Shown here: piece by piece, positions 3,121 to 25,891 of the stretch
Layout of the letters: the number at the start of each line of letters is the position of its first letter
How positions within the stretch are numbered: the first letter of the stretch is position 1
Origin: a virus
DNA length: 28,873 bases
Strand: one strand, 5' to 3'
Virus record (IMG/VR): IMGVR_UViG_3300010160_000172
Span: 1-28,873 of that record
Program-made: the position numbers and the translations under genes
The notes under the pieces: generated by a model
The model's input: only the letters and a program-made list of their open reading frames with translations
Database searches by the model: none
Told to the model about the DNA's origin: nothing

Positions 3121-4480
3121 ATATTGCTGCTTTCATTGCTGCCGTATCATTATTAATAGCTGGTAGTGCAGTTGGTGAACTGTCTTTACAAATTTCAATC
3201 ACAGTTTGATATGCACCTTGTTGTATGATGTGTCTTACTGCTGTCACCAAATATTTACCTGAATAGAATTTATCCAAATCTCTTTCTTTTCCCGGTTTCA
3301 ATGTCAACAAATCAAATTGTATTGTTCGGCCAGCAGTGAGTCCTGGATCTCCAGGTATTGTGGCTTTAATTGTTGTGAAATTGGCCAAAGATATTTGTGC
3401 TGTTCTATTTGGAATATATGTTTCTACAAATACATCTTGTGCAACACTACCCTCAGCCTGTTTGATATAAGAAAAATTTCTCTGACCGGCATTACCAATA
3501 CTGACTTTCAAAACACCTTCATATGCTTCATTCTCTTTTTTACCCAATCTGTTTCTCAATGTATCCTGTAAACCATTTTTGTTAAGTGTGGTACCCTGAC
3601 TTTTGTACTTTTCATAATCAAAGTTTGTTGTTTTAACTGTTCTAGTCAATGGATCAATAGTTATCAATTTGTTAGCAATCGTACCAGAATTAATTTCATT
3701 CAATGTATCGAATGGTTTAGTTATCTCATAATTTAATACACCAATAGATTTTTCCTGGAAACTTTGTTTTTTATTATCTATATTTTTTGCTTCATATTTG
3801 TATGTGGCATAAACTGGATCACTAAACATTGATTGTATTGACCTAAAATTGAAACCATCTTTTGTTTCAAAGAATAACATATCAGCACCAGGAAACTTTT
3901 GTGGTCGGCCATAAGTTGAAAGCCAACTAATTGTTTCCAATGGTTTTAAATTGGGTATAATAAAATCATATATGCCAGTAGTCTGTTCTATTTTATAAAT
4001 TCTATTAGATTGAACTTTTAGATTATTCAACAGAACTTCTTTGACAATGCTTGATATGTAACTACCTTTGAATGATTTACTTATTTTTGTTTGTTCCGAC
4101 AATAGAAGTTCTTCGGAACAAAAATACAATGTGTATACTTCACTATTTTGATTACCACTGGGTTTTCTGTTACTTGATTTGTAAACTCTAAATACTTGGT
4201 CATTACTATTTTTACCGTCTTTTACCTTACCAAAATTAACCTCAATATATTCATTACCAGTTATCCTCATCAATTCAATAAAACCTTGAGCATCAATAAG
4301 TGTAATGTAACCAGATGTTACAAAATTGTAAATGTCTTCATAATAACACAACTCTACCATTAATTTTTTAAGTTCAATCTTTTGGCCGCTGGCAGTCAAA
4401 AAATTTAAAGTCTTTAATGAAAAATCTTGTGGATAATAAACACCAGGAGATTCAACTGTATTTAAGTTTGTATCGGCCAT
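3113..4480 (-). CDS. 27: Baseplate hub protein, gp27-like
   Basis: This 455-residue protein has the layout of the gp27/gpD hub family. Near the N-terminus are a Pro-rich entry (SPGVYYPQDF) and an insert-prone beta domain (KKLMVELCYYEDIYNFVTSG, ITLIDAQGFIELMRITGNEY). Next come a mid segment resembling gp27 (SEELLLSEQTKISKSF, then IVKEVLLNNL, IYDFIIPNLKPLETISWLS) and a C-terminal beta barrel (YLVTAVRHIIQQGAYQTVIE). The hub forms the trimeric ring at the bottom of the tail tube and holds the gp5 spike complex. It is longer than T4 gp27 (about 390 residues). Its neighbours are gp5 and gp53, consistent with the role. Confidence 0.78.
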   Translation of the reverse strand: MADTNLNTVESPGVYYPQDFSLKTLNFLTASGQKIELKKLMVELCYYEDIYNFVTSGYITLIDAQGFIELMRITGNEYIEVNFGKVKDGKNSNDQVFRVYKSSNRKPSGNQNSEVYTLYFCSEELLLSEQTKISKSFKGSYISSIVKEVLLNNLKVQSNRIYKIEQTTGIYDFIIPNLKPLETISWLSTYGRPQKFPGADMLFFETKDGFNFRSIQSMFSDPVYATYKYEAKNIDNKKQSFQEKSIGVLNYEITKPFDTLNEINSGTIANKLITIDPLTRTVKTTNFDYEKYKSQGTTLNKNGLQDTLRNRLGKKENEAYEGVLKVSIGNAGQRNFSYIKQAEGSVAQDVFVETYIPNRTAQISLANFTTIKATIPGDPGLTAGRTIQFDLLTLKPGKERDLDKFYSGKYLVTAVRHIIQQGAYQTVIEICKDSSPTALPAINNDTAAMKAAIYA

Positions 4481-4482
4481 AA

Positions 4483-5085
4483 TTATACACTCATTAGTTT
4501 CTTATATTCTGTTTCGAGTTGACTAACATATGTTGCATTAAGTAACTTGATACTTCTTTTAGCCTCATTTAATTCCAATTCATAATCATATATTGATACA
4601 GCATTTGTTTCAACGGTTACAACAACATCACCAGCTGGTAGGTTATAAGTTGTTGTTTGTGTAGTTGGTAATTGATTATAAACACCTTCAGTTATTTGAA
4701 TTTTATTTATTGTTGTGGTCATTGAATCGGTGTCATATTGTGTAATGATTTTTTCATAATGATGTATAGTAGAAGAAGTTTGGATGTTGGGATATTTATT
4801 TTCCAAATATTTGGCAAATACTGTGTTGTTCATTGGCCAATCCCATTGTGGATCCATTAATTCATTAGACAACATTACAATCCAGTAACGATATGAATCG
4901 CCATAATACTTATGTGCAATTATTTCTGGTGTATCACCATCTTGTATATCATATTCGTAATAGTTTAGTGGATTCTTTAGTAATTGTGGAATTATAGAAA
5001 CTCTCGACATGATGTTGGTAACAACTTTTGATGTACCGACAGCATCCGTATGTATTACTTTAGGTAAAATGTCAAAATATTGCAT
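4483..5085 (-). CDS. 53: Baseplate wedge protein gp53
   Basis: This 200-residue protein carries the gp53 signature: YYEYDIQDGDTPEIIAHKYY, GDSYRYWIVMLSNELMDPQW, DWPMNNTVFAKYLENKYP. The first part resembles a LysM-like fold (xxGDTpexiAxkyYGdxxxxW). In T4, gp53 locks neighbouring wedges together when the baseplate assembles around the hub. The C-terminal third is charged and probably helical (YDYELELNEAKRSIKLL). The gene sits directly between the hub and tube-cap genes, separated from each by 2 nt, which suggests translational coupling. Confidence 0.92.
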   Translation of the reverse strand: MQYFDILPKVIHTDAVGTSKVVTNIMSRVSIIPQLLKNPLNYYEYDIQDGDTPEIIAHKYYGDSYRYWIVMLSNELMDPQWDWPMNNTVFAKYLENKYPNIQTSSTIHHYEKIITQYDTDSMTTTINKIQITEGVYNQLPTTQTTTYNLPAGDVVVTVETNAVSIYDYELELNEAKRSIKLLNATYVSQLETEYKKLMSV

Positions 5086-5087
5086 TT

Positions 5088-6053
5088 TTAATATCCATCC
5101 TCAATTTTAGTTTTGTCGATGAGTTCCATCTCTCTGAAGCTGAGTGTTAAAGTAGTTTGTACTGGTGCACCGTCATCATGAGCTGCCCATCCATTAGGTG
5201 CATAATTCACATCCACACTTTCCAAAACACTCTCAGCAACTTTATTGACATTTTTATTCATTTTACCATTGAACATAAAACTAACATCAAATGTGGAAGG
5301 AGGAATAAAGAACATACCGGCACCAGCAGTTGTAATCTTTGGTGCTGCATGATATTTAAACTTTTTAATAATCTTTTTTACTGTTTCGGCTTCTTGTCTG
5401 GTATATGGTGTGAAAGTAAAAGCCATTTGATAAGTTCTAAAATCAATACCATCAAACATCAATTGTTGGTTTGGATTGATTGCAAGACCTTGCGATCGTA
5501 ACAATAATTTTGCTGCACTCGATTGAGATGCTGAGATTCCAGCTGAAAGTAAGTTTCCATACTTATTGAGTCCAGATAGTACAGGATTGTCTTTTTTAGC
5601 AAAATTAACAGCACCTGCAAGGTCTTTGGCAACATCCAGTAAACTTAAATTGCCATAGGAAGAATTATAAGTAAAGTTGACGGTATCTGGAATATATAAT
5701 GATATTGATGAATCTAATCTTTTCGTTCTTGGTTTTAAATTTAGATTAACATTTTTTTTGCTGTCAATAAAATTTGTTACTGCATTGAATCCTGCATTTA
5801 CTGCAGCTCCAACAGGAGTATCCGCATCTAAGCCCATAAAATTAGTATTATTACTTTCTTCAAAACTTATGGGGTCTATTTCATTGATAAAGAATTGTAC
5901 TACATGACCTTTGGTAGCAGAACTCAAATCACTTGGATATTGTAGAGTGTCCTTGTTATATTTACTACCAAATAATGCACCTAGTGGTCCTTTGACTAAG
6001 GCACCAGGTATAGATACACCACCGATTGAAGATGGAATTGAAATTAAGGCCAT
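5088..6053 (-). CDS. Tail tube cap / tube initiator protein (gp48/gp54 family)
   Basis: This 321-residue protein belongs to the gp48/gp54 group, which sits on the hub and nucleates polymerisation of the tail tube. The N-terminus is Gly/Pro/Ile-rich (SIPSSIGGVSIPGALVKGPL). Residues ~205-315 form the tube-like domain: YQMAFTFTPYTRQEAETVKK, then MFFIPPSTFDVSFMFNG, and VNYAPNGWAAHDDGAPVQTT leading to LTLSFREMELIDK. Length equals T4 gp54 (320), but the sequence order also fits gp48 (364), so I do not choose between them. It is the first gene of the leftward baseplate block. An ATAAATA element lies 30 nt upstream (6084-6090). Confidence 0.82.
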   Translation of the reverse strand: MALISIPSSIGGVSIPGALVKGPLGALFGSKYNKDTLQYPSDLSSATKGHVVQFFINEIDPISFEESNNTNFMGLDADTPVGAAVNAGFNAVTNFIDSKKNVNLNLKPRTKRLDSSISLYIPDTVNFTYNSSYGNLSLLDVAKDLAGAVNFAKKDNPVLSGLNKYGNLLSAGISASQSSAAKLLLRSQGLAINPNQQLMFDGIDFRTYQMAFTFTPYTRQEAETVKKIIKKFKYHAAPKITTAGAGMFFIPPSTFDVSFMFNGKMNKNVNKVAESVLESVDVNYAPNGWAAHDDGAPVQTTLTLSFREMELIDKTKIEDGY

Positions 6054-6083
6054 TGGAAATCTCTTATTAATTAATTATACATA

Positions 6084-15284: not shown

Positions 15285-15291
15285 TATTTAG
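15285..15291 (-). promoter_or_regulatory. CTAAATA late-promoter-like element for the barrel gene
   Basis: CCTAAATACC on the minus strand lies 31 nt before the barrel start codon and overlaps the stop codon of the upstream hydroxylase-like gene. The distance suits a short leader carrying the AGGAG Shine-Dalgarno sequence. Confidence 0.5.
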
Positions 15292-15893
15292 GAACCTATC
15301 AAACCTTCCTCAAAGGAGGAAATTCCTAAAAAAGACCTTGATATATCTATAATATAAATCAATCTTCTTTTTTGTGTTTTATTGTATGCACTGTGTAATA
15401 CACCATTATCAAAGGCAAACAAATTTGACCAATCCATTTCTGTACCCATAGCTTCAAAGAAAACATCTCCGTCAGGAATGATTAATGGTACGTGTATTCT
15501 AATTGTTTTGCGAGAATGATTTTCTATATCAGAATGTCTACTAATTACTCCACCAGCTTCTAATATACTATAACCACTGCAACCACAATGAGCAATATAT
15601 TTCTGTGTTAACTCACAAGCAGTTGGGAATATATTTCTAATACTTGGTTGAAGAAACATATTTTCTTCTATTTTTTTCTCAGGTAAAACATAACGTAAAC
15701 CTTCTATCTTCCAATCAACTCTTTCCTTATCATCTAACAATGCTTGTTTATTTACTTTTGAGTAAGGAGTGCCACCTTTAAAAGTGGTATAAAAATCTTT
15801 ATGGTGTGCCAAAAATTCATCAAGTAATTTAGGTGCCAATTCTATTAATTCATCGGCAATTTTTATTTCTTCTTTCTTCCAAATTGTTTTCAT
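15288..15893 (-). CDS. Aspartyl/asparaginyl beta-hydroxylase-like 2OG oxygenase
   Basis: This 201-residue protein is of the Asp/Asn hydroxylase type. The double-stranded beta-helix core has GGVISRHSDIENHSRKTIRI with metal ligands His120 and Asp122, then HVPLIIPDGDVFF. FAFDNGVLHSAYNKTQKRRL supplies distal His167 and a candidate 2-oxoglutarate-binding Arg177. Such enzymes use Fe(II), O2 and 2-oxoglutarate to hydroxylate Asp/Asn in proteins or small molecules. I use the ATG at 15893 rather than the GTG at 15896, because GGAGG lies only 4 nt before the ATG and would touch the GTG. The gene follows directly on the tmRNA gene in the same direction. The target is unknown. Confidence 0.8.
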   Translation of the reverse strand: MKTIWKKEEIKIADELIELAPKLLDEFLAHHKDFYTTFKGGTPYSKVNKQALLDDKERVDWKIEGLRYVLPEKKIEENMFLQPSIRNIFPTACELTQKYIAHCGCSGYSILEAGGVISRHSDIENHSRKTIRIHVPLIIPDGDVFFEAMGTEMDWSNLFAFDNGVLHSAYNKTQKRRLIYIIDISRSFLGISSFEEGLIGS

Positions 15894-15909
15894 CACACCT
15901 CCATTAAAT

Positions 15910-17977: not shown

Positions 17978-18628
17978 TTAATTTTCCTTATAAAACTTTA
18001 TGTACTCCAATAAAGTATTTAGATGGTCCGCAGTCTTTTCAATAAAAATCAATGGTTCTTCATCATCTACGGCCATAATAATCACAATTTGGTCAATACC
18101 ATTACCAATCAATTCTTCATACATACAGGCATATGCCACACATTGAGCAAAGTAGTTGTCAATGTCTTCCCTTTTCTTAATCCTCTTGGATGTTTTAAAG
18201 TCAATCACAGACAAAACACCATCAAATTCACCAATACAATCAACACGACCTGCCATACCAAGTTTAACTGACCATAAGGCACATTCTTGGTAGTGAATAT
18301 TGTTAATACGGTTTAAGATTGGTTTAAGTGGTAGAAACATGGCCTTAGCATCAGGCATAATCTCACCAAGTGGTTCATTGTTTAGATATCGTTCACATAG
18401 TGTATGTACGTTTGTACCACGACCTGATGCCTTGCGTGATATCTTGTTGGCTTCTTCTTCACCAACACGTTTACGCCACGCTATGATGGCCGCCTTACCT
18501 TTTGCACCAATGACTGTGGTAACAGATGGTAGTTTTATACCATCAGGTGTGGTGTAGTATCTTTTTCCATCAGGAAAAGTTTCTGATTTTAAATTTACAA
18601 GGTCTTTTGGTGGGCAATAAACAAACAT
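17978..18628 (-). CDS. RecB-like PD-(D/E)xK exonuclease
   Basis: This 216-residue protein has the PD-(D/E)xK motifs of the RecB/Cas4-like group. The helix GTNVHTLCERYL carries the early His, GMAGRVDCIGEFDG carries the first metal Asp, VIDFKTSKR is the D-x-K core, and YFAQCVAYACMYEE is the Q-x-x-x-Y helix. These enzymes degrade DNA ends in recombination, repair or host-genome breakdown. The ATG overlaps the stop of the upstream radical-SAM gene by 1 nt (TAATG), so the two are co-translated. It could alternatively work in DNA-end processing for packaging. Confidence 0.82.
   Translation of the reverse strand: MFVYCPPKDLVNLKSETFPDGKRYYTTPDGIKLPSVTTVIGAKGKAAIIAWRKRVGEEEANKISRKASGRGTNVHTLCERYLNNEPLGEIMPDAKAMFLPLKPILNRINNIHYQECALWSVKLGMAGRVDCIGEFDGVLSVIDFKTSKRIKKREDIDNYFAQCVAYACMYEELIGNGIDQIVIIMAVDDEEPLIFIEKTADHLNTLLEYIKFYKEN
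18016..18022 (-). promoter_or_regulatory. CTAAATA late-promoter-like element for the propeller gene
   Basis: TCTAAATACTT on the minus strand lies inside the last codons of the nuclease gene, 38 nt before the propeller ATG. This suits late expression of a virion gene separately from the upstream enzymes. Confidence 0.45.
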
Positions 18629-20145
18629 TATAATCCTAACTTTAATTTTTTATATTCTAATATAGTTTGATCCGCCTCTTCAATTTTTCTATTTAAAAAG
18701 CTTTTATCAAAATTTCCATCGATGATATCTTTCACATCAACACCTAAACCAACCAATTCATATACATCATGGTTGATACTAACACCTTTGTTAGCATTAC
18801 CATAAATGGATTTACCTGCTTTGATACGGTGTTGTTCGGTTTCTTTATTTAATTTATCTGTAATTGTTCTAACAGTATACCAATTTGCATACTTGTTTTT
18901 CCAAATCATTATACCTTCATCTTCTTGGCCATATCTGAAGTCATCATCATCTTTTGGTAATCTGTATTCTCCGGGTAACATTTCAGTGTATCCCCATTTT
19001 TCATATTCTTTTTCAAATTCACTTAAACGACTGACAGAACCTTTTCTGATTAGTAATGGCCACCAATCCCAATTATCAAACACTTCAAAATTTTGGTCGA
19101 GTAATAACTGCTGACTTTTCAATACACTAGAGATTGGTTCTCCAGGTAAACCTGCAATCATACCTGTATATGTATATGTTGGTTTATATTTCTTTAGTTG
19201 ACGAATAGCTTCGAATTGTCTTTCATTATCCAATCCTTTACCAATTGCTTTCTTTGCTTCTGGATGTAATGTTTCTAAACCAAATGTTGCAGCAACCAAA
19301 CCTGTATCACCCAACATAGGGATAGTTTCAGGAAATCTTTCAATCAAATCTGCACGTAAGAATGCTGTGTATGTTATCTTAACACCACTCTTTGCAATAG
19401 CCTCAGCAACATAGTCCAGTTTTACCACATTATCATTAAAGGTATCATCATTAAACCAATAGTTGGTAACACCAAACATTTCATAGTTTCTTCTTAATTC
19501 TGCTGATAGATTATCTACATGGCGGATGTAATCATTTTTCTTTTTACCCAACAATGGAAAGGCACAGAATCTACACCTGAAAATACAGCCTCTACTAATT
19601 TCAATAGGCAAGAAATTGTGTTTGATTAAATCACTTTCCAACCACTTAATAGTTAAATCGTTAGTATCATTCTTATACAACATCTCAGCATTTACTGACC
19701 GAGTCTCTCTGTATATTTCCCATGGTAAATCATTCAGTAGTTTTCTGGTTAAGAATTTAAGATAATGTAGCACAGCTTCTTCAGCATAACCCCAGAAAAT
19801 CTTATCTACTTTAGTCAAGTCAACACCACTAATTGGTGTTTCATTACCACCAATTAGAGTCTTTACTTTAGGATATTTTTCTTTGATGTGATTGAATAGA
19901 TAATTGATTTTATCAAAAGCGTATATGAATGTAATACTAATACCAACAAACAAAGTTTTTGGTCCAATATATCTGGCACAAAGTTGTTCTAATTCTTGCT
20001 CAGTAAAATTACCAAAATAATCTATAACTTCAATATCATAATTGTGTTGTTCCAAGAAAGTTCGCATTCTCGCAGCACCGGCTGGCCGACTAATTGTCCT
20101 AGTCCGTTCCATACCTGTGAAGATGATACCATGTTTATCATTCAT
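18628..20145 (-). CDS. Radical-SAM enzyme with N-terminal B12-binding-type domain
   Basis: This 505-residue protein has two main domains. Residues ~1-130 are Rossmann-like, as in cobalamin-binding radical-SAM enzymes (GAARMRTFLEQHNYDIEVID, LFVGISITFI, VKTLIGGNETPISG), but without the DxHxxG lower-ligand motif. Residues ~180-390 are the radical-SAM barrel: EISRGCIFRCRFCAFPLLGK with cluster cysteines Cys187, Cys191 and Cys194, then YWFNDDTFNDN and FGLETLHPEAKKAIGKGL. A C-terminal extension contains an acidic DDDDF stretch. Related enzymes methylate or rearrange unreactive carbons. It heads a run of oxygenase-fold genes, separated by 3 nt from the first. The substrate is unknown. Confidence 0.85.
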   Translation of the reverse strand: MNDKHGIIFTGMERTRTISRPAGAARMRTFLEQHNYDIEVIDYFGNFTEQELEQLCARYIGPKTLFVGISITFIYAFDKINYLFNHIKEKYPKVKTLIGGNETPISGVDLTKVDKIFWGYAEEAVLHYLKFLTRKLLNDLPWEIYRETRSVNAEMLYKNDTNDLTIKWLESDLIKHNFLPIEISRGCIFRCRFCAFPLLGKKKNDYIRHVDNLSAELRRNYEMFGVTNYWFNDDTFNDNVVKLDYVAEAIAKSGVKITYTAFLRADLIERFPETIPMLGDTGLVAATFGLETLHPEAKKAIGKGLDNERQFEAIRQLKKYKPTYTYTGMIAGLPGEPISSVLKSQQLLLDQNFEVFDNWDWWPLLIRKGSVSRLSEFEKEYEKWGYTEMLPGEYRLPKDDDDFRYGQEDEGIMIWKNKYANWYTVRTITDKLNKETEQHRIKAGKSIYGNANKGVSINHDVYELVGLGVDVKDIIDGNFDKSFLNRKIEEADQTILEYKKLKLGL

Positions 20146-20148
20146 AAT

Positions 20149-20943
20149 TTAAATAAGTTCGTTGTCTCTAACTCTCTTGGTAACATACTTATCTCTGATT
20201 GCATTAAAGAAATCAACATCTTCATCTGTTAATTCAGCAGCATCAATCTTCTCTCTTTGACCACGGACATAATTCAACATCTGTTCAAAATCACCATCAT
20301 AGTTAAAATGTTTGGTTATCTTCTTCACATCATAAGCATCCATAATAATATGATATCTATCTTCATCAGAATCATTTCTAATTTGATGCCATTGGTTTAC
20401 CCAAAGAATCCAAACACCACCATCGGCAGGCATATGTAGATTCTTACCTTGACAGATATGAACACACTTTTTATTTGTCCATAGAGGAATATGAATACGT
20501 GCCATATAATCCGTTTCATTGGCATCTTTGTGTACCAAACTCTTTGAGTGTGCCTTTAAACAAGTAACTCTTGCTCTTGTTGGATAAAATCCCATTTCAC
20601 GAATATCATCTAATACTTTTTTAATTTCACCAACATATGCTTCGGTTGGTTTATCGTGTTCCAATCCATGTGAAATATTAAAATAATTGTATGCCTTGTA
20701 GACCAATTCTTCCGTAGGTAGAAATGACTCTAGTGTGTGTCCTTTTTCTAACTGAATTGCTTCCCAACCACCAGTCCAAGTGGCTTCTTTACACAACAAA
20801 CTCCAACCACCAAAACCGTTGTATTGTGGTGTTTCATATTCTTTACCCTGAATAACTTGGTCACCCAAAGTGAATACACTTTCTCTTACTTCTTGTTTTA
20901 ATTTTTCAATATCTACTGTGTAATCTAATTTTTCGAAAAACAT
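20149..20943 (-). CDS. Asp/Asn hydroxylase-like 2OG oxygenase
   Basis: This 264-residue protein belongs to the aspartyl/asparaginyl hydroxylase fold. SKSLVHKDANETDYMARIHI holds the metal motif His138-x-Asp140 and Arg149, then PLWTNKKCVH. GGVWILWVNQWHQIRNDSDE carries distal His186, followed by DRYHIIMDAYD with Arg196 as candidate 2-oxoglutarate ligand. An N-terminal ~100-residue region (FGGWSLLCKEATWTGGWEAI) may bind the substrate. It is one of four oxygenase-fold genes in a row and lies directly upstream of the B12-type radical-SAM gene in the direction of transcription. Substrate unknown; proteins, peptides or free metabolites are all possible. Confidence 0.82.
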   Translation of the reverse strand: MFFEKLDYTVDIEKLKQEVRESVFTLGDQVIQGKEYETPQYNGFGGWSLLCKEATWTGGWEAIQLEKGHTLESFLPTEELVYKAYNYFNISHGLEHDKPTEAYVGEIKKVLDDIREMGFYPTRARVTCLKAHSKSLVHKDANETDYMARIHIPLWTNKKCVHICQGKNLHMPADGGVWILWVNQWHQIRNDSDEDRYHIIMDAYDVKKITKHFNYDGDFEQMLNYVRGQREKIDAAELTDEDVDFFNAIRDKYVTKRVRDNELI

Positions 20944-20953
20944 TTTTTATCCT

Positions 20954-21622
20954 TTATAAATTTCCAGTTTCTTTTAACATATCGTAAACTTGACCATAGT
21001 CATAGTGCCTAGTTCTTAATGCAAACGCTTTCCTTAGTTTAGTTCCATCCAATGGTTCAACATTGTGTGGTACCCTAACATCCAACATATATGCTTCGTT
21101 ACGTTGTGCTACAAAAGAACCAATCTCATATACATCATCAAAAGAATATACTGCATCAACATATGTAATTTCTTCACACGTTGGCATATTTTGTTTTTCA
21201 GCCACAAATTCTTTTACTTTACTCTTTAAATCTTCTACATTAATCTCTGTTGCTTCCATAATACCAGCTGATACATCTGTATGTCTATCTTCTTCTGTTT
21301 TCCAAGAATTTGCACCATCTTTTGGTTTAAAGAAAATAGTTTTGTAATCACCTGGTTCATAATAAAAATTAATCGTAGTTATAAAATCATTATCAACATG
21401 AGGTAACAACAAACTATTAATTGACATTCTTGTTACTTGAAAATCTTTCCAATATCTTTCCGGTATAACTTTATACAAAACTTCTTTTTCTGGTTCTGGT
21501 GTCCAAATTGTATTATGTCTAACGCCTAGTCCATATTTACCAGCAAATGAATCTGCCTTACCTTTTGGAATAATTGTATGCGGCATATACTCATATGTAT
21601 GTTTTAATTTAACGAATGACAT
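20954..21622 (-). CDS. Putative oxygenase-fold (DSBH) protein, paralogue A
   Basis: This 222-residue protein is clearly paralogous to the product of the next gene upstream: RYWKDFQVTRMSINSLLLPH versus RYWQDFHLTVMTIDCIIPPH, and both end in a MLKET...N helix. His75-x-Asp77 (LPHVDNDF), His186 (VPHNVEP) and Arg197 (LRKAFALRT) match the H-x-D...H...R pattern of 2OG oxygenases, so an active iron site is plausible. A ~50-residue charged insert (residues ~108-160) is absent from the paralogue. Start by overlap of 14 nt with the preceding gene. Function unknown. Confidence 0.62.
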   Translation of the reverse strand: MSFVKLKHTYEYMPHTIIPKGKADSFAGKYGLGVRHNTIWTPEPEKEVLYKVIPERYWKDFQVTRMSINSLLLPHVDNDFITTINFYYEPGDYKTIFFKPKDGANSWKTEEDRHTDVSAGIMEATEINVEDLKSKVKEFVAEKQNMPTCEEITYVDAVYSFDDVYEIGSFVAQRNEAYMLDVRVPHNVEPLDGTKLRKAFALRTRHYDYGQVYDMLKETGNL

Positions 21623-22139
21623 TATCGGTTTCCTTTAACATTTCAATTACATCCTCATACTTATGAACAAAAGTTCCTAAGGTAATGGCTTTACGTAAAT
21701 TGAATTCACCTTTAACGCCGTGTATTTGACTTACATCAAGTAACCATACTTCCATATCTTTGGCCACAAAAGAATCAACCTCAATCAAATCATCTTCAAA
21801 ATATATATGACCATTGGTTTGGTTCTCTATTTGTATCGTTTTCACTCTATCAACTTTTGGTTTGTAGAATGTTGTTGTACAACCTTCAGTTTGAAGATAG
21901 AAATTGATTGAGGTAATGATTTCTGTATCTGTATGTGGTGGAATTATACAGTCTATTGTCATAACTGTCAAGTGAAAATCTTGCCAGTATCGTTTTGGTA
22001 GTACATTATATATCTTTTCTGCCTCGGGTGACCATATCTTCTTATAGTCAATACCTTTACCATCTACCTTAAATATTTTTAGTGAATCGGTAACTGCGTA
22101 TAGTGGTTTTTCAAATGTTTTTTCCAGTTTGGTAAACAT
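21609..22139 (-). CDS. Putative oxygenase-fold (DSBH) protein, paralogue B
   Basis: This is a 176-residue protein when started at the ATG at 22139 (MFTKLEKTFEK). I prefer this to the in-frame ATG at 22178 because it overlaps the previous stop as TAATG, has a purine-rich GAGTGGAAA upstream, and lines up with the paralogue start. His69-x-Asp71 (PPHTDTEI), His140 (SQIHGVK) and Arg149 (LRKAITLGT) fit the 2OG-oxygenase metal and cosubstrate pattern. The body is FYLQTEGCTTTFYKPK then FVAKDMEVWLLDV. Likely arose with paralogue A by tandem duplication. Substrate unknown. Confidence 0.62.
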   Translation of the reverse strand: MFTKLEKTFEKPLYAVTDSLKIFKVDGKGIDYKKIWSPEAEKIYNVLPKRYWQDFHLTVMTIDCIIPPHTDTEIITSINFYLQTEGCTTTFYKPKVDRVKTIQIENQTNGHIYFEDDLIEVDSFVAKDMEVWLLDVSQIHGVKGEFNLRKAITLGTFVHKYEDVIEMLKETDNVIR

Positions 22140-22831
22140 TATTTCCACTCTTTGATTTTTGCCATACGTCCAGCCCACGATTTTAAAATTACCGTATTCT
22201 GTGCGTTTTTATCTACCACTTTTCTAAGGTCAGTTGATAATGAAATACGTAGGTCATCGGACTTATTTTCATCTACGCCATGTAGAACATAATTTGGAAA
22301 GAAAATTAAACGGCCTTCAACAGGTTTATATCTACGCTCACGTAAATTTGGTGTACTACTTATTTTAATATTCAACCAATCAATTGCGTGTGATGAATCG
22401 AATGCTACAAGGTCACCACAACCTTCTTTTGCTTTGATGTAGTATGTTGCTGCTATAGCAGATTCGGTGTGTCCATGCACCTCTAGGCTTTCTCCTGGCT
22501 CACGTACATTTACCCAACCCATAAAGTGTTCACACCCACGAATATTTAACATTCTAAGTTGTGGAATGTTCTGTACAATCTTTTTGGTTACAATGTCTAC
22601 AATTTCTTGTTTGAGTATATCTAAATTTGGTCTGCTGTAGTCCCATATACTATTGTTTGGGTCTCTGTCTTTACCCAATACGATATCTTTGCCGATACCA
22701 TAGATTTCATCTAATAGAGTTTCATTAAATTGTTCATCAAAACGTGTTTGTACTTCCCATATTGGACTTTGCCAAAACATATTCTGTGCATTTTGGTACC
22801 AATGGTACCTATCTTTGTCACTCATTGTCAT
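22139..22831 (-). CDS. Putative 2OG-Fe(II) oxygenase (phage TIGR02466-like)
   Basis: This 230-residue protein resembles the widespread phage 2OG-Fe(II) oxygenase group. It has GWVNVREPGESLEVHGHTES (His119, His121), AIAATYYIKAKEGCGDLVAF, then VEGRLIFFPNYVLHGVDENK with distal His184 and LRISLSTDLR with Arg195. The FPNxxxHxVxxn...RxSxS signature is strong. Such genes are common in aquatic T4-like phages and their substrates are mostly unknown. It is the first gene of the oxygenase run, coupled to paralogue B by a TAATG overlap. Confidence 0.85.
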   Translation of the reverse strand: MTMSDKDRYHWYQNAQNMFWQSPIWEVQTRFDEQFNETLLDEIYGIGKDIVLGKDRDPNNSIWDYSRPNLDILKQEIVDIVTKKIVQNIPQLRMLNIRGCEHFMGWVNVREPGESLEVHGHTESAIAATYYIKAKEGCGDLVAFDSSHAIDWLNIKISSTPNLRERRYKPVEGRLIFFPNYVLHGVDENKSDDLRISLSTDLRKVVDKNAQNTVILKSWAGRMAKIKEWK

Positions 22832-22842
22832 AATAAAAATTG

Positions 22843-23229
22843 TTAACTATTTTGAGTTTCGTACCACTCTTTATGTAGTCTTAATCTTTCCATTTTTAAA
22901 TTATATTCTTCTTCAGACAAGTCTGCATCTTTAGGTAAAGATAGTTGATGATTATATTCTTCTATTGGATTTCTAGGTGCACATTGTAGAGCCCAATCAG
23001 CACCATATTCTTGTATTATTCCTTGTAGAGGTTCTTTCCAAATCTTAGTTAATAAATCACCGTACAATTGGTCAACCAGAAAAGATTCTTTCATATCTTG
23101 TTGTGAAAGATTTAAGTAATTTTCTTCAAATGTTTTTTTAAAGAACTTGGCCAACAAATCAGGCCTAAAAATGACAGTATTGCCACAACAAGTCTTTATA
23201 GTTTCTGATGAAGTATATGTGCCTCTCAT
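22843..23229 (-). CDS. Unknown 128-residue protein in the modification cluster
   Basis: The start chosen is the ATG at 23229 (MRGTYTSSETIK), which overlaps the upstream stop as ATGA and has GGAGAG 7 nt before it; a longer frame from 23247 is less likely. It opens with a CC pair (TIKTCCGNTVIFRPDLLAKF) and is then helical and acidic (FLVDQLYGDLLTKIWKEPLQ; LSEEEYNLKMERLRLHKEWY). I do not recognise a family. It lies between two oxygenase/radical-SAM blocks and is translationally coupled to both neighbours, so an accessory role in the same pathway is possible. Confidence 0.55.
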   Translation of the reverse strand: MRGTYTSSETIKTCCGNTVIFRPDLLAKFFKKTFEENYLNLSQQDMKESFLVDQLYGDLLTKIWKEPLQGIIQEYGADWALQCAPRNPIEEYNHQLSLPKDADLSEEEYNLKMERLRLHKEWYETQNS

Positions 23230-23510
23230 TTTGTTCTCTCCAACCATGCTAAGTACTCATGTACTAGTTTATCATTTACCCTTTTTCTAAGAGATACTGG
23301 TAAGAATATAACAGAATTCAATACCGAATCTTCATACAATTTTGTTATCAGAGCTTCATGGTCTGTTACTAATTTGAAGTAACGCTCTTTATCTTCTTGT
23401 GAGAGACAATTGATAATGTCGTAACTGACTGTATCGAAGAAATGTGTAAGATGGTCATGTAAGAATTCTTCACCATCATCATGTGTTGTTATTAATACTG
23501 CGTCATGCAT
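23226..23510 (-). CDS. Unknown 94-residue protein, coupled to Cys-rich protein gene
   Basis: This protein is MHDAVLITTHDDGEEFLHDH followed by LTHFFDTVSYDIINCLSQED and a helical remainder ending LVHEYLAWLERTK. It is His- and Asp-rich near the N-terminus (HDDGEEFLHDH), a possible metal site, and has no signal peptide. The ATG overlaps the stop of the Cys-rich protein gene (TAATG), so it is co-translated. No family recognised. Confidence 0.55.
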   Translation of the reverse strand: MHDAVLITTHDDGEEFLHDHLTHFFDTVSYDIINCLSQEDKERYFKLVTDHEALITKLYEDSVLNSVIFLPVSLRKRVNDKLVHEYLAWLERTK

Positions 23511-24403
23511 TAAATAACTCCTTTTTTGGGAATAAATCTTTCAATCAAACGACCTAACTCGGCAACAAGTTTGAACATAACAAAAATAACAACAAGACCT
23601 GCACCTTTAATGAAACCAGGTTCTTTCTTGCTTGGTCCAAACCAACGTTGCCACACACCAATAACTTTACAGATTGGTGTACCAAATGCAAACATCATCT
23701 TGCCTGTAAGACTACCAGTTTCTTTTTCACCCATCATATAGGCCATTTCTTCAGCCCAAGGTGTTGCGATATCGTGAGCCCATGTGATAGACCATTTCTT
23801 AGCAGCAATACTAAAATCTTCATCGGACATCCAAGGCATCATTTTAGGTCCCTTGCCGTCCATCCAGTCAACAACAATCTCAGCCCAAGCACGATAACCA
23901 TTATAAATGTCTGGATGTGTTTTAATCAATTGTTCACCAAATGCTTGGTCAGCCTCAAAGATGTTTTTCTTCATAAGACCAAGGTCAAATAGTTTTGTAC
24001 AAATAATCTTTGAACAATTACAGTTGTATGTGAAACAATTTTGGTCACTTGTACAATTATACACCGGCGTAGGAACAATTTGACAATCTCCAGTTTGTAA
24101 CCACGCTTGTGCGTCACAATTGGCGGAACCTATATTCGTACAGTTATTTGTTGCGTTACATTGGAAATCTGGACCAGAGCTACAATTACAATTAACCTCA
24201 TTACCATTATTACAATTGCCTTGATTGTTTTGAAGATAATACTTTAAACTCCAAAATGAAGCCATATCAGGTATTGTCGGCCTAATTCCAGGCTTTATGT
24301 ATATTCTTAAAAACTCCAAATCAGCAGTTGTTGCTGGAGGTATATTCGTTTCAGCTTCAATGTCCGATACTCCAATTCGATTCGGATTTGATGGTAGTGT
24401 CAT
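23510..24403 (-). CDS. Cys-rich protein with C-terminal hydrophobic segment
   Basis: This 297-residue protein has three parts. The N-terminus PNRIGVSDIEAETNIPP resembles the short entry segment of phage tail and fibre proteins. Residues ~60-138 hold 12 cysteines in about 75 residues with N-C-N/C-N-C spacing (NCNCSS, NCNCSK) and low charge. The C-terminal half is Trp/Met-rich (AWAEIVVDWMDGKGPKMMPW) and ends in a hydrophobic span FIKGAGLVVIFVMFKLVAEL plus a basic tail. It sits directly between a SPASM radical-SAM gene and a small coupled gene. It may be a virion protein with disulfides, a metal binder, or a substrate for thioether cross-linking; none is proven. Confidence 0.5.
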   Translation of the reverse strand: MTLPSNPNRIGVSDIEAETNIPPATTADLEFLRIYIKPGIRPTIPDMASFWSLKYYLQNNQGNCNNGNEVNCNCSSGPDFQCNATNNCTNIGSANCDAQAWLQTGDCQIVPTPVYNCTSDQNCFTYNCNCSKIICTKLFDLGLMKKNIFEADQAFGEQLIKTHPDIYNGYRAWAEIVVDWMDGKGPKMMPWMSDEDFSIAAKKWSITWAHDIATPWAEEMAYMMGEKETGSLTGKMMFAFGTPICKVIGVWQRWFGPSKKEPGFIKGAGLVVIFVMFKLVAELGRLIERFIPKKGVI

Positions 24404-24433
24404 GTTCGTATGCTCTCTGAATTATTATTCTAG

Positions 24434-24440
24434 TATTTAT
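24434..24440 (-). promoter_or_regulatory. ATAAATA late-promoter-like element for the Cys-rich gene
   Basis: ACATAAATACTAG on the minus strand overlaps the stop codon of the SPASM gene and lies 30 nt before the ATG at 24403. It is one of the better matches to the T4 late box, supporting late expression and perhaps a virion role for the Cys-rich protein. Confidence 0.5.
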
Positions 24441-25891
24441 GTTTCCAAACGAGATTTACCATAGACAGGAACGTTATCAACTTCACCAATAATCTCTTTA
24501 ACTACCTTGATAGGTATGATTCTTTTCTGTTTTTCTGTATCTTCATGTTGGAAAATTGTACCAAAAATGTCTTGTCTTTCCAATGGTAATGTATCACTCT
24601 TAATAAGTGAAGGAATATATCCATTTGTCATTACAGTAAATCCAGCAGCAAACAAAGCCACGTTGTCAGAGTAAGCATTAGCACAAGAAATATCCCAAAA
24701 TTTCTCATCCAAGAACATACAAGCACCTTTACAGATGTGTAGTACAGGACATTCTGGACACTCTTTACGATTGGACCAATGAGTAACTGATTTCAATTCA
24801 ACATTTGAATAATCATCTAAGTTTCCACCATTGTGTGATTCACCATTTTTTGAGATTTCCAATGTACTTACATTTTGACAAGTCATTACGTTACCACGTA
24901 GGTCGACCGAAATAGTGTGCTCGTCATCCATACCACATTTTTGGCCTAGGTATTTAGATTCCCTGTGGTTTAATACACCACTAACAAAATTATCGATTTT
25001 ACCTAACTGGCCTCTAAAACCAATTTTACCATTGGATCCATACAATTCACCAAATGCACGTTTACGAAAGTCAAAATGTTCTTGTTTTGTAAGTAGTGAG
25101 TTTGAAATGCCTTCTTCGTCATAGGCATCTACCATAGAACCTTCACCTAAGATAACATTTTCATCACCAGTAAGGTTTACAAACCAGTCATAGATTTCTT
25201 TTCTACTTTGGTTCTTAGAATTCAACATAGAATTGAAACTGAAACTTTTACCTAGTCGTGTCATCATTCTATGGAAACCGAGAATACGGTCTTTCTGTTC
25301 CGGATCATCAAATGGGTCTGGTCCACGTACAAATTGACCTGGACCATCATGTGAGATTGCTACTGAGAAGTCCATCATCATTAACCAATCAATAATCTCA
25401 TCAGTCAGAATAGAACCATTGGTAATGATACTAAAACGTGGTTTTGTTTTCCAACTATCAAACTTTTCCGCAATGGCCTCTGCCAGTGGTTTTAGTGTTT
25501 TCCAGTATACCAGTGGTTCGCCACCCCAAAATTCAACAATCAATCCAACATCTTCATCAAAATGTAGTGCTTCCAATTTGTCTAGGAAGGAATCAATATC
25601 TTTTTTGGAAGTTTCTGGTTGACGCTCAACGAATTTCTGTGAGCAATAGTCACATGAATAATTACAACTCAGTCCCATCTGGATCTTTAGGTGACTGATT
25701 AGTTTTGATTTCTTTAAAGGCCGATTCTTATCGAATGATTTGTATGGTTTTAGAGAGTGTTTCTCTCTTTGTTCTTCTGGATATTCAAAAATATTACCAT
25801 CAGCATCTTTCAATACATTGGTCATATTATCATAATGAAAATATTTTACATCACCGTCTTCGAATCGGGTGCCTTTAATCTCAAATAACAT
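24437..25891 (-). CDS. Radical-SAM/SPASM enzyme (anaerobic-maturase-like)
   Basis: This 484-residue protein has the radical-SAM motif in LKIQMGLSCNYSCDYCSQKF (Cys76, Cys80, Cys83). The barrel features EFWGGEPLVYWKTL and FSIITNGSILTDEI follow. A C-terminal SPASM region starts KCGMDDEHTISVDLRGNVMT and includes CQNVS, then ECPECPVLHICKGACMF and a final SCANAY, enough cysteines for two auxiliary iron-sulfur clusters. SPASM enzymes modify peptides or proteins: sulfatase maturation, thioether cross-links, or Cys/Ser oxidation. An N-terminal ~60-residue domain (MLFEIKGTRFEDGDVKYFHY) may be a peptide-recognition-type element. The downstream neighbour is the Cys-rich protein, a natural candidate substrate. 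Confidence 0.85.
   Translation of the reverse strand: MLFEIKGTRFEDGDVKYFHYDNMTNVLKDADGNIFEYPEEQREKHSLKPYKSFDKNRPLKKSKLISHLKIQMGLSCNYSCDYCSQKFVERQPETSKKDIDSFLDKLEALHFDEDVGLIVEFWGGEPLVYWKTLKPLAEAIAEKFDSWKTKPRFSIITNGSILTDEIIDWLMMMDFSVAISHDGPGQFVRGPDPFDDPEQKDRILGFHRMMTRLGKSFSFNSMLNSKNQSRKEIYDWFVNLTGDENVILGEGSMVDAYDEEGISNSLLTKQEHFDFRKRAFGELYGSNGKIGFRGQLGKIDNFVSGVLNHRESKYLGQKCGMDDEHTISVDLRGNVMTCQNVSTLEISKNGESHNGGNLDDYSNVELKSVTHWSNRKECPECPVLHICKGACMFLDEKFWDISCANAYSDNVALFAAGFTVMTNGYIPSLIKSDTLPLERQDIFGTIFQHEDTEKQKRIIPIKVVKEIIGEVDNVPVYGKSRLET

Follow-up and report, generated by a model that had tools for sequence, protein, structure and literature searches.

The window (28,873 nucleotides, positions 1 to 28,873 of the IMG/VR virus record IMGVR_UViG_3300010160_000172) encodes on its minus strand a SPASM radical-SAM enzyme of 484 amino acids (24437-25891), the proposed maturase, and, 33 bp downstream on the same strand, a Cys-rich phage protein of 297 amino acids (23510-24403), the proposed substrate. 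Both genes lie where an earlier sequence-only reading, which took them for a possible enzyme-substrate pair, had placed them, and its assignment of the enzyme to the SPASM radical-SAM proteins is borne out. The radical-SAM core is significant in the Pfam search (PF04055, E 2e-10) and the protein matches phrog_1802 in PHROG (E 1e-61). It contains both the CX3CX2C motif of the SAM-binding cluster (C75, C79 and C82; 25646-25669, minus strand) and the complete 7-Cys SPASM motif of the form CX9-15GX4C-gap-CX2CX5CX3C-gap-C, here C318-x13-G-x4-C337 ... C377-x2-C380-x5-C386-x3-C390-x11-C402 (24686-24940, minus strand). All 10 of these Cys residues, 3 in the core and 7 in the SPASM domain, are invariant among the 51 relatives aligned, down to 29% identity. 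Their arrangement is the CteB pattern, and the AuxI loop, C-x13-G-x4-C, contains no additional Cys. The best NCBIfam matches include the PapB and geopeptide maturases, and maturases of cyclophanes (YhhB, AmcB) and of dynobactin (DynA) are also among the neighbors. No NCBIfam equivalog cut-off is approached by the window enzyme or its distant members: the scores of the SPASM enzymes stay below 80 bits, with 78.5 bits for the window enzyme and 53-69 bits in distant members against the PapB profile NF047865. These values are so far below the PapB cut-off of 340 bits that family assignment is no guide to the chemistry. Identity with the anaerobic sulfatase maturase (TIGR03942) was considered and rejected, given a score of 41 bits against a cut-off of 349 and the lack of the extra AuxI-loop Cys of 4k36.

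The Cys-rich protein consists of an N-terminal head region (aa 1-56; 24236-24403, minus strand) that in alignments resembles short fibre-type head domains, a Cys-rich segment (aa 64-135; 23999-24214, minus strand) in which the Cys residues are mostly part of N-C pairs and which ends in NCNCSKIIC, and a C-terminal "KIICTKL" domain (about aa 131-297; 23510-24013, minus strand), a module common to other T4-like virion proteins. The description of this product as a 12-cysteine protein is correct for the segment, where 12 Cys fall within 72 residues, but the total is 13, the last one being at residue 245. Against the Cys background of the window (0.93%), 12 Cys in a stretch of 74 residues have a binomial P of about 6e-12. 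Asn precedes 9 of the 12 segment Cys (P about 7e-5 even given the Asn content of the segment itself); the pure NC run is short in the window protein, where a distance of 5-11 residues separates most of the Cys. The blocks conserved among the homologs are GNCNN, NCNCGNIQC, NCANCD.Q.WLQ, NCNCACTYNC and NCNCACNCSKIIC. A single strongly hydrophobic stretch (aa 263-281; 23561-23617) is a plausible membrane anchor. Pfam and PHROG searches with the window protein gave no significant match, tail fibers included, and no Pfam family matched the KIICTKL domain. The fiber-like N-terminus ascribed to this protein is reflected in a start of the form SxI..S.I..E.G, which resembles other phage proteins, but not in any Pfam or PHROG match. 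The KIICTKL domain itself appears as a mobile module that follows either poly-Gly or an NC run (L027-L040; 23510-24013 in the window), and its hosts include many T4-like virion proteins, e.g., gp5-OB, very long proteins, and fibers.

A late-promoter-like CATAAATACTA precedes the Cys-rich gene (24431-24441, minus strand). The position of the box is kept in most relatives, where an A+T-rich [TC]ATAAATA/CTAAATA box occupies the same site and is often also found ahead of the SPASM gene; within the window, however, CATAAATACTA is no rarer than chance (2 found against 1.55 expected). The late promoter is weakened as independent evidence by this count.

On the other side of the Cys-rich gene, also on the minus strand, lies a conserved cassette. 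It begins with a 94-aa gene (23226-23510; neighbor cluster 5, in 22 of 24 near loci) and a 134-aa gene that clusters with it (22843-23247); both were rejected as substrates, as they are absent from the distant loci (0 far) that keep the pairing. Next come a 2OG-Fe(II) oxygenase (22139-22831; PF13759, phrog_81) that is conserved near the pair and might be a second maturation enzyme, a 189-aa gene (21609-22178) with an HxD...H...R pattern invariant over 29 members and no Pfam match, its 222-aa paralog (20954-21622), and an aspartyl/asparaginyl beta-hydroxylase-like gene conserved in near loci (20149-20943; PF05118, E 1.3e-8). Given that the two paralogs between 20954 and 22178, neither of which is matched by Pfam, keep the HxD...H...R residues, they are probably 2OG-Fe(II) oxygenases as well. 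Genes of the 2OG type are found within a few kb of the enzyme in 14 of 14 near and 24 of 42 far loci, compared with 0 of 14 poly-Gly control loci, a comparison that is suggestive rather than proof because the control loci are centered on a different gene. In distant loci, Fe(II)/2-oxoglutarate oxygenases are often encoded between the enzyme and the gene of the NC-tail fiber. The window further encodes a B12-binding radical-SAM protein weakly similar to PhpK P-methyltransferases (18628-20145; shared by 5 of 24 near loci) and, outside the cassette, a second aspartyl/asparaginyl hydroxylase-like protein (15288-15896; PF05118, E 6e-13).

Association of the enzyme with Asn-Cys segments

A protein search of IMG/VR yields 74 loci with the enzyme at 62-100% identity, and each of the 74 contains a homolog of the Cys-rich protein, with 13-25 Cys, mostly directly downstream and in a few cases up to about 1.5 kb off. 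The pair is co-conserved in metagenomic phages. The converse situation, a Cys-rich segment that is widespread without the SPASM gene, was looked for and is not the case. Relatives that share the C-terminal domain alone carry poly-Gly followed by KIICTKL, have few Cys, and lack the enzyme in the locus. The enzyme family is absent from 8 of 10 whole records of such poly-Gly relatives (contigs of 113-320 kb); one of the other two has just two weak other rSAMs, and in the second (L034) the enzyme is located about 120 kb from the poly-Gly gene, where its neighbor is a separate protein of 143 aa with 17 Cys and the C-terminal sequence NCNCNCTFCACACW.

A reverse scan, in which IMG/VR DNA was searched for NCNCNCNC and NCNCACNC codons with no reference to the enzyme, gives the same association from the substrate side. 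Among the matches listed, the motif is in frame in 178 of 193 loci, and these represent 65 distinct C-terminal tails. In-frame C-terminal runs of the (NC)4 type with at least 6 kb of downstream sequence are accompanied by the enzyme in 37 of 38 listed loci, the lone exception being a 45-aa ORF, and KIIC-type loci with at least 2.5 kb upstream in 22 of 23, where the one without the enzyme has just 268 bp downstream; the out-of-frame matches listed have the enzyme in 0 of 15 cases. These counts are not fully independent of the first search, with which some contigs are shared. In three records without the enzyme in the fetched stretch, it was found elsewhere in the same record. L346, in which a long protein of virion type has its NC run in the interior, is only an apparent exception, as the enzyme of this record is encoded about 200 bp downstream of a long ORF whose internal run combines NC with poly-Gly. 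Together with the pairing in all 74 loci and the enzyme-poor poly-Gly relatives, the scan supports the claim that enzyme and Cys-rich protein form a pair.

The association extends to distant relatives, namely 80 loci from bacterial genomes (30-62% identity; 59 non-redundant), mostly from Burkholderiales, Rhodobacterales and Rhodospirillales and, judging by the neighbor genes, mostly phage tail regions. An ORF with an XC run on the same strand is present in 44 of the 59 non-redundant loci, compared with 1 of 59 in the antisense control; manual inspection raises the number to 45, because the NC-Hint protein of L187 fell outside the length filter. Among the far loci that extend sufficiently upstream, about 55 in number, 10 lack the run, and some of these 10 belong to an outgroup of about 30% identity. 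Typical tail ends are ...NCNCNCNCCGC, ...NCNCNCRC and ...NCNCNCNCACNC, and in one locus (L119) three consecutive ORFs each have an NC-type end. The partners are mostly fiber-type proteins of 70-600 aa in which the run forms the C-terminus or precedes a C-terminal domain, such as the Hint domain (PF05203). They are encoded by dedicated, co-occurring substrate genes of the kind expected of RiPP systems, but are not short precursors with a cleaved leader peptide. Near-full-length relatives of the enzyme occur in only three records, from two distinct phages, among 50,697 phage genomes. In Achromobacter phage JWF, the enzyme (42% identity) is encoded two genes downstream of an NC-run fiber (PJWF_00028) with QNCNCDCNCNCSC immediately ahead of a Hint domain, and phage 2-1 has the same arrangement. 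The two distant partner fibers tested match tail-fiber PHROG families, which fits the virion location suggested for the Cys-rich protein, although the window protein has no such match.

Among 347 spacer positions X in the (XC)n runs, N accounts for 285 (82%), A for 38 (11%) and D for 15 (4%), and Q also occurs. Gene order and distance vary, the NC gene being upstream or downstream of the enzyme at 0-5 kb, and the scaffolds that carry the runs fall into many unrelated groups, at most 31 clusters with a 60% coverage filter. This figure is an upper bound, given that some clusters are mis-started ORFs; the coverage filter was adopted because single-linkage clustering chained 186 of 198 scaffold heads into one group. 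One enzyme family tracks the (Asn-Cys)n signature on many tail-fiber scaffolds, a wider phenomenon than the single case described at the outset.

In 30 far loci, a gene for a protein of 254-380 aa separates the NC fiber gene from that of the enzyme (e.g., L119, 6552-7316). The outgroup SPASM genes (L185, L186, L188 and L190; 30-35% identity, 3 of 4 from Variovorax) are found without an NC run, and two of them are near a small ORF with DCGC.ISP, perhaps a different RiPP. The locus L424 is a second, separate pairing of rSAM genes with a Cys-repeat fiber: a fiber with a (CTCNCNY) repeat ahead of an S74-like DKRLKENI stretch lies beside two other rSAM genes (1552-2310 and 3863-6081, both on the minus strand) that score 139 and 78 bits with the PapB profile.

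Possible product and role of the modification

The two-way gene association across different scaffolds is strong evidence that the substrate of the SPASM enzyme is the XC segment of the neighboring protein. The interpretation we favor, and consider fairly probable, is that the enzyme is a dedicated phage maturase modifying the XC-repeat segments of tail fibers, most likely by introducing thioether cross-links. The substrates of the family would be (Asn-Cys)n runs at or near the fiber C-terminus or directly ahead of a Hint or KIIC domain. The enzyme would act late in infection, binding the Cys-rich segment such that a substrate Cys becomes a further ligand of the auxiliary cluster, to which the enzyme itself contributes only three; the 5'-deoxyadenosyl radical would then take a hydrogen from a nearby residue, the usual spacers being Asn, Asp and Ala, a thioether would form, and the reaction would be repeated from one end of the run to the other. 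The fiber would thereby acquire a rigid tip or linker that withstands proteases and redox changes, and the linked 2OG-Fe(II) oxygenases may hydroxylate the same fiber. Given its location at or near the C-terminus or ahead of Hint, KIIC or S74-like (L424) domains, the NC run may become the fiber tip.

The frequent Ala spacer is a poor fit to a purely beta/gamma-carbon thioether; links to the alpha-carbon instead of the beta-carbon would be easier to reconcile with it, as would a run in which not every spacer is a partner. The variation of the spacers (N, A, D, Q) is also what could be expected if the enzyme acts on the XC segment to yield a non-thioether product, i.e., by Cys oxidation, epimerisation or C-C/C-O linkage, with Asn a mere spacer. 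We deem this unlikely, if worth keeping in view: SPASM enzymes perform many chemistries, and YhhB, AmcB and DynA are among the NCBIfam neighbors, but Cys is the invariant element of the run, and three-ligand auxiliary clusters accompany substrate-thiol binding in enzymes of the CteB/PapB type (PMC10470005). Considerably less plausible is a role of the XC runs in binding metal or Fe-S clusters or in forming fiber-tip disulfides, with the enzyme modifying another residue or helping metal loading. CXCXC is the classic metallothionein spacing, and Cys-rich tips could hold metal; however, no known metal domain is matched, and this proposal leaves the strict tracking of the radical-SAM enzyme unexplained. 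That the pair is just a co-inherited syntenic block, the enzyme of which targets host or other phage molecules, seems highly improbable: phage tail regions do show synteny, and the 2OG genes accompany the pair, but order and distance of the paired genes differ, the scaffolds belong to many unrelated groups, and the KIIC scaffold without an NC segment usually comes without the enzyme.

If the XC segments are cross-linked by the SPASM enzyme as favored here, viral proteins would be shown to undergo a new type of post-translational modification, and this on the phage part most likely to touch the host; radical-SAM cross-linking is known so far in peptides and in a small number of enzyme subunits. 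Numerous phages and prophages of freshwater and marine origin carry the pairing, which suggests that these viruses chemically rebuild part of the host-touching fiber. A broader, joint proposal, which we put forward tentatively and hold to be somewhat doubtful, is that radical-SAM enzymes and Fe(II)/2OG oxygenases build poly-thioether (Asn-Cys)n tips on unrelated fibers, shaping host contact, with (Asn-Cys)n filling the place held by poly-glycine in relatives. The substrate signature is easily recognized, and two of the phages, Achromobacter JWF and 2-1, are in culture; (XC)n substrates occur naturally in many lengths and should be useful for studies of repeated radical cross-linking. In the literature searched, no earlier description of (NC)n fibers or of their enzyme was found. 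Radical-SAM cassettes were observed earlier in the host-recognition regions of pelagimyophages, where they were left without an explanation (PMC7029224), and the favored interpretation, if true, would provide one.

Comparison with known systems

The PapB/PapA ranthipeptide system resembles the window pair in that the same 10-Cys SPASM arrangement is encoded next to a repeated-Cys substrate; PapB also links adjacent Cys-Asp pairs (n=0), and its auxiliary cluster binds the substrate thiol (PMC9413430, PMC10470005). However, the substrate PapA is a small, CX3D-containing peptide whereas the phage substrates are fiber-type proteins with (N/A/D)-C runs, and the phage enzymes score 53-79 bits with the PapB profile. 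The SCIFF thioether maturase CteB (PDB 5wgg) has the same pattern of core and SPASM Cys and is among the top PDB profile matches, but it acts on a short conserved peptide and possesses an N-terminal region unmatched by the phage enzyme, the alignment beginning at the core. QhpD (TIGR03906) is a SPASM enzyme that cross-links Cys within a whole protein, the gamma subunit of quinohemoprotein amine dehydrogenase. It likewise has a whole-protein rather than a secreted-peptide substrate, although that substrate is unrelated and the score is 62 bits against a cut-off of 453. The anaerobic sulfatase-maturating enzyme, as which the JWF homolog is annotated, is also a SPASM protein, and its structures (PDB 4k36/4k37) match the phage enzyme over most of the length; however, its AuxI loop, CGMNGTCTC, has the extra Cys missing from the phage enzyme, and the NC segments lack its CxP/AxR substrate motif. 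Finally, the NC run is often directly ahead of C-terminal processing modules of fibers, the Hint domain (PF05203) and the S74-like chaperone. Such modules act on themselves and are not normally known to be partnered by a radical-SAM enzyme. Given this location, the processed fiber would end in the NC run.
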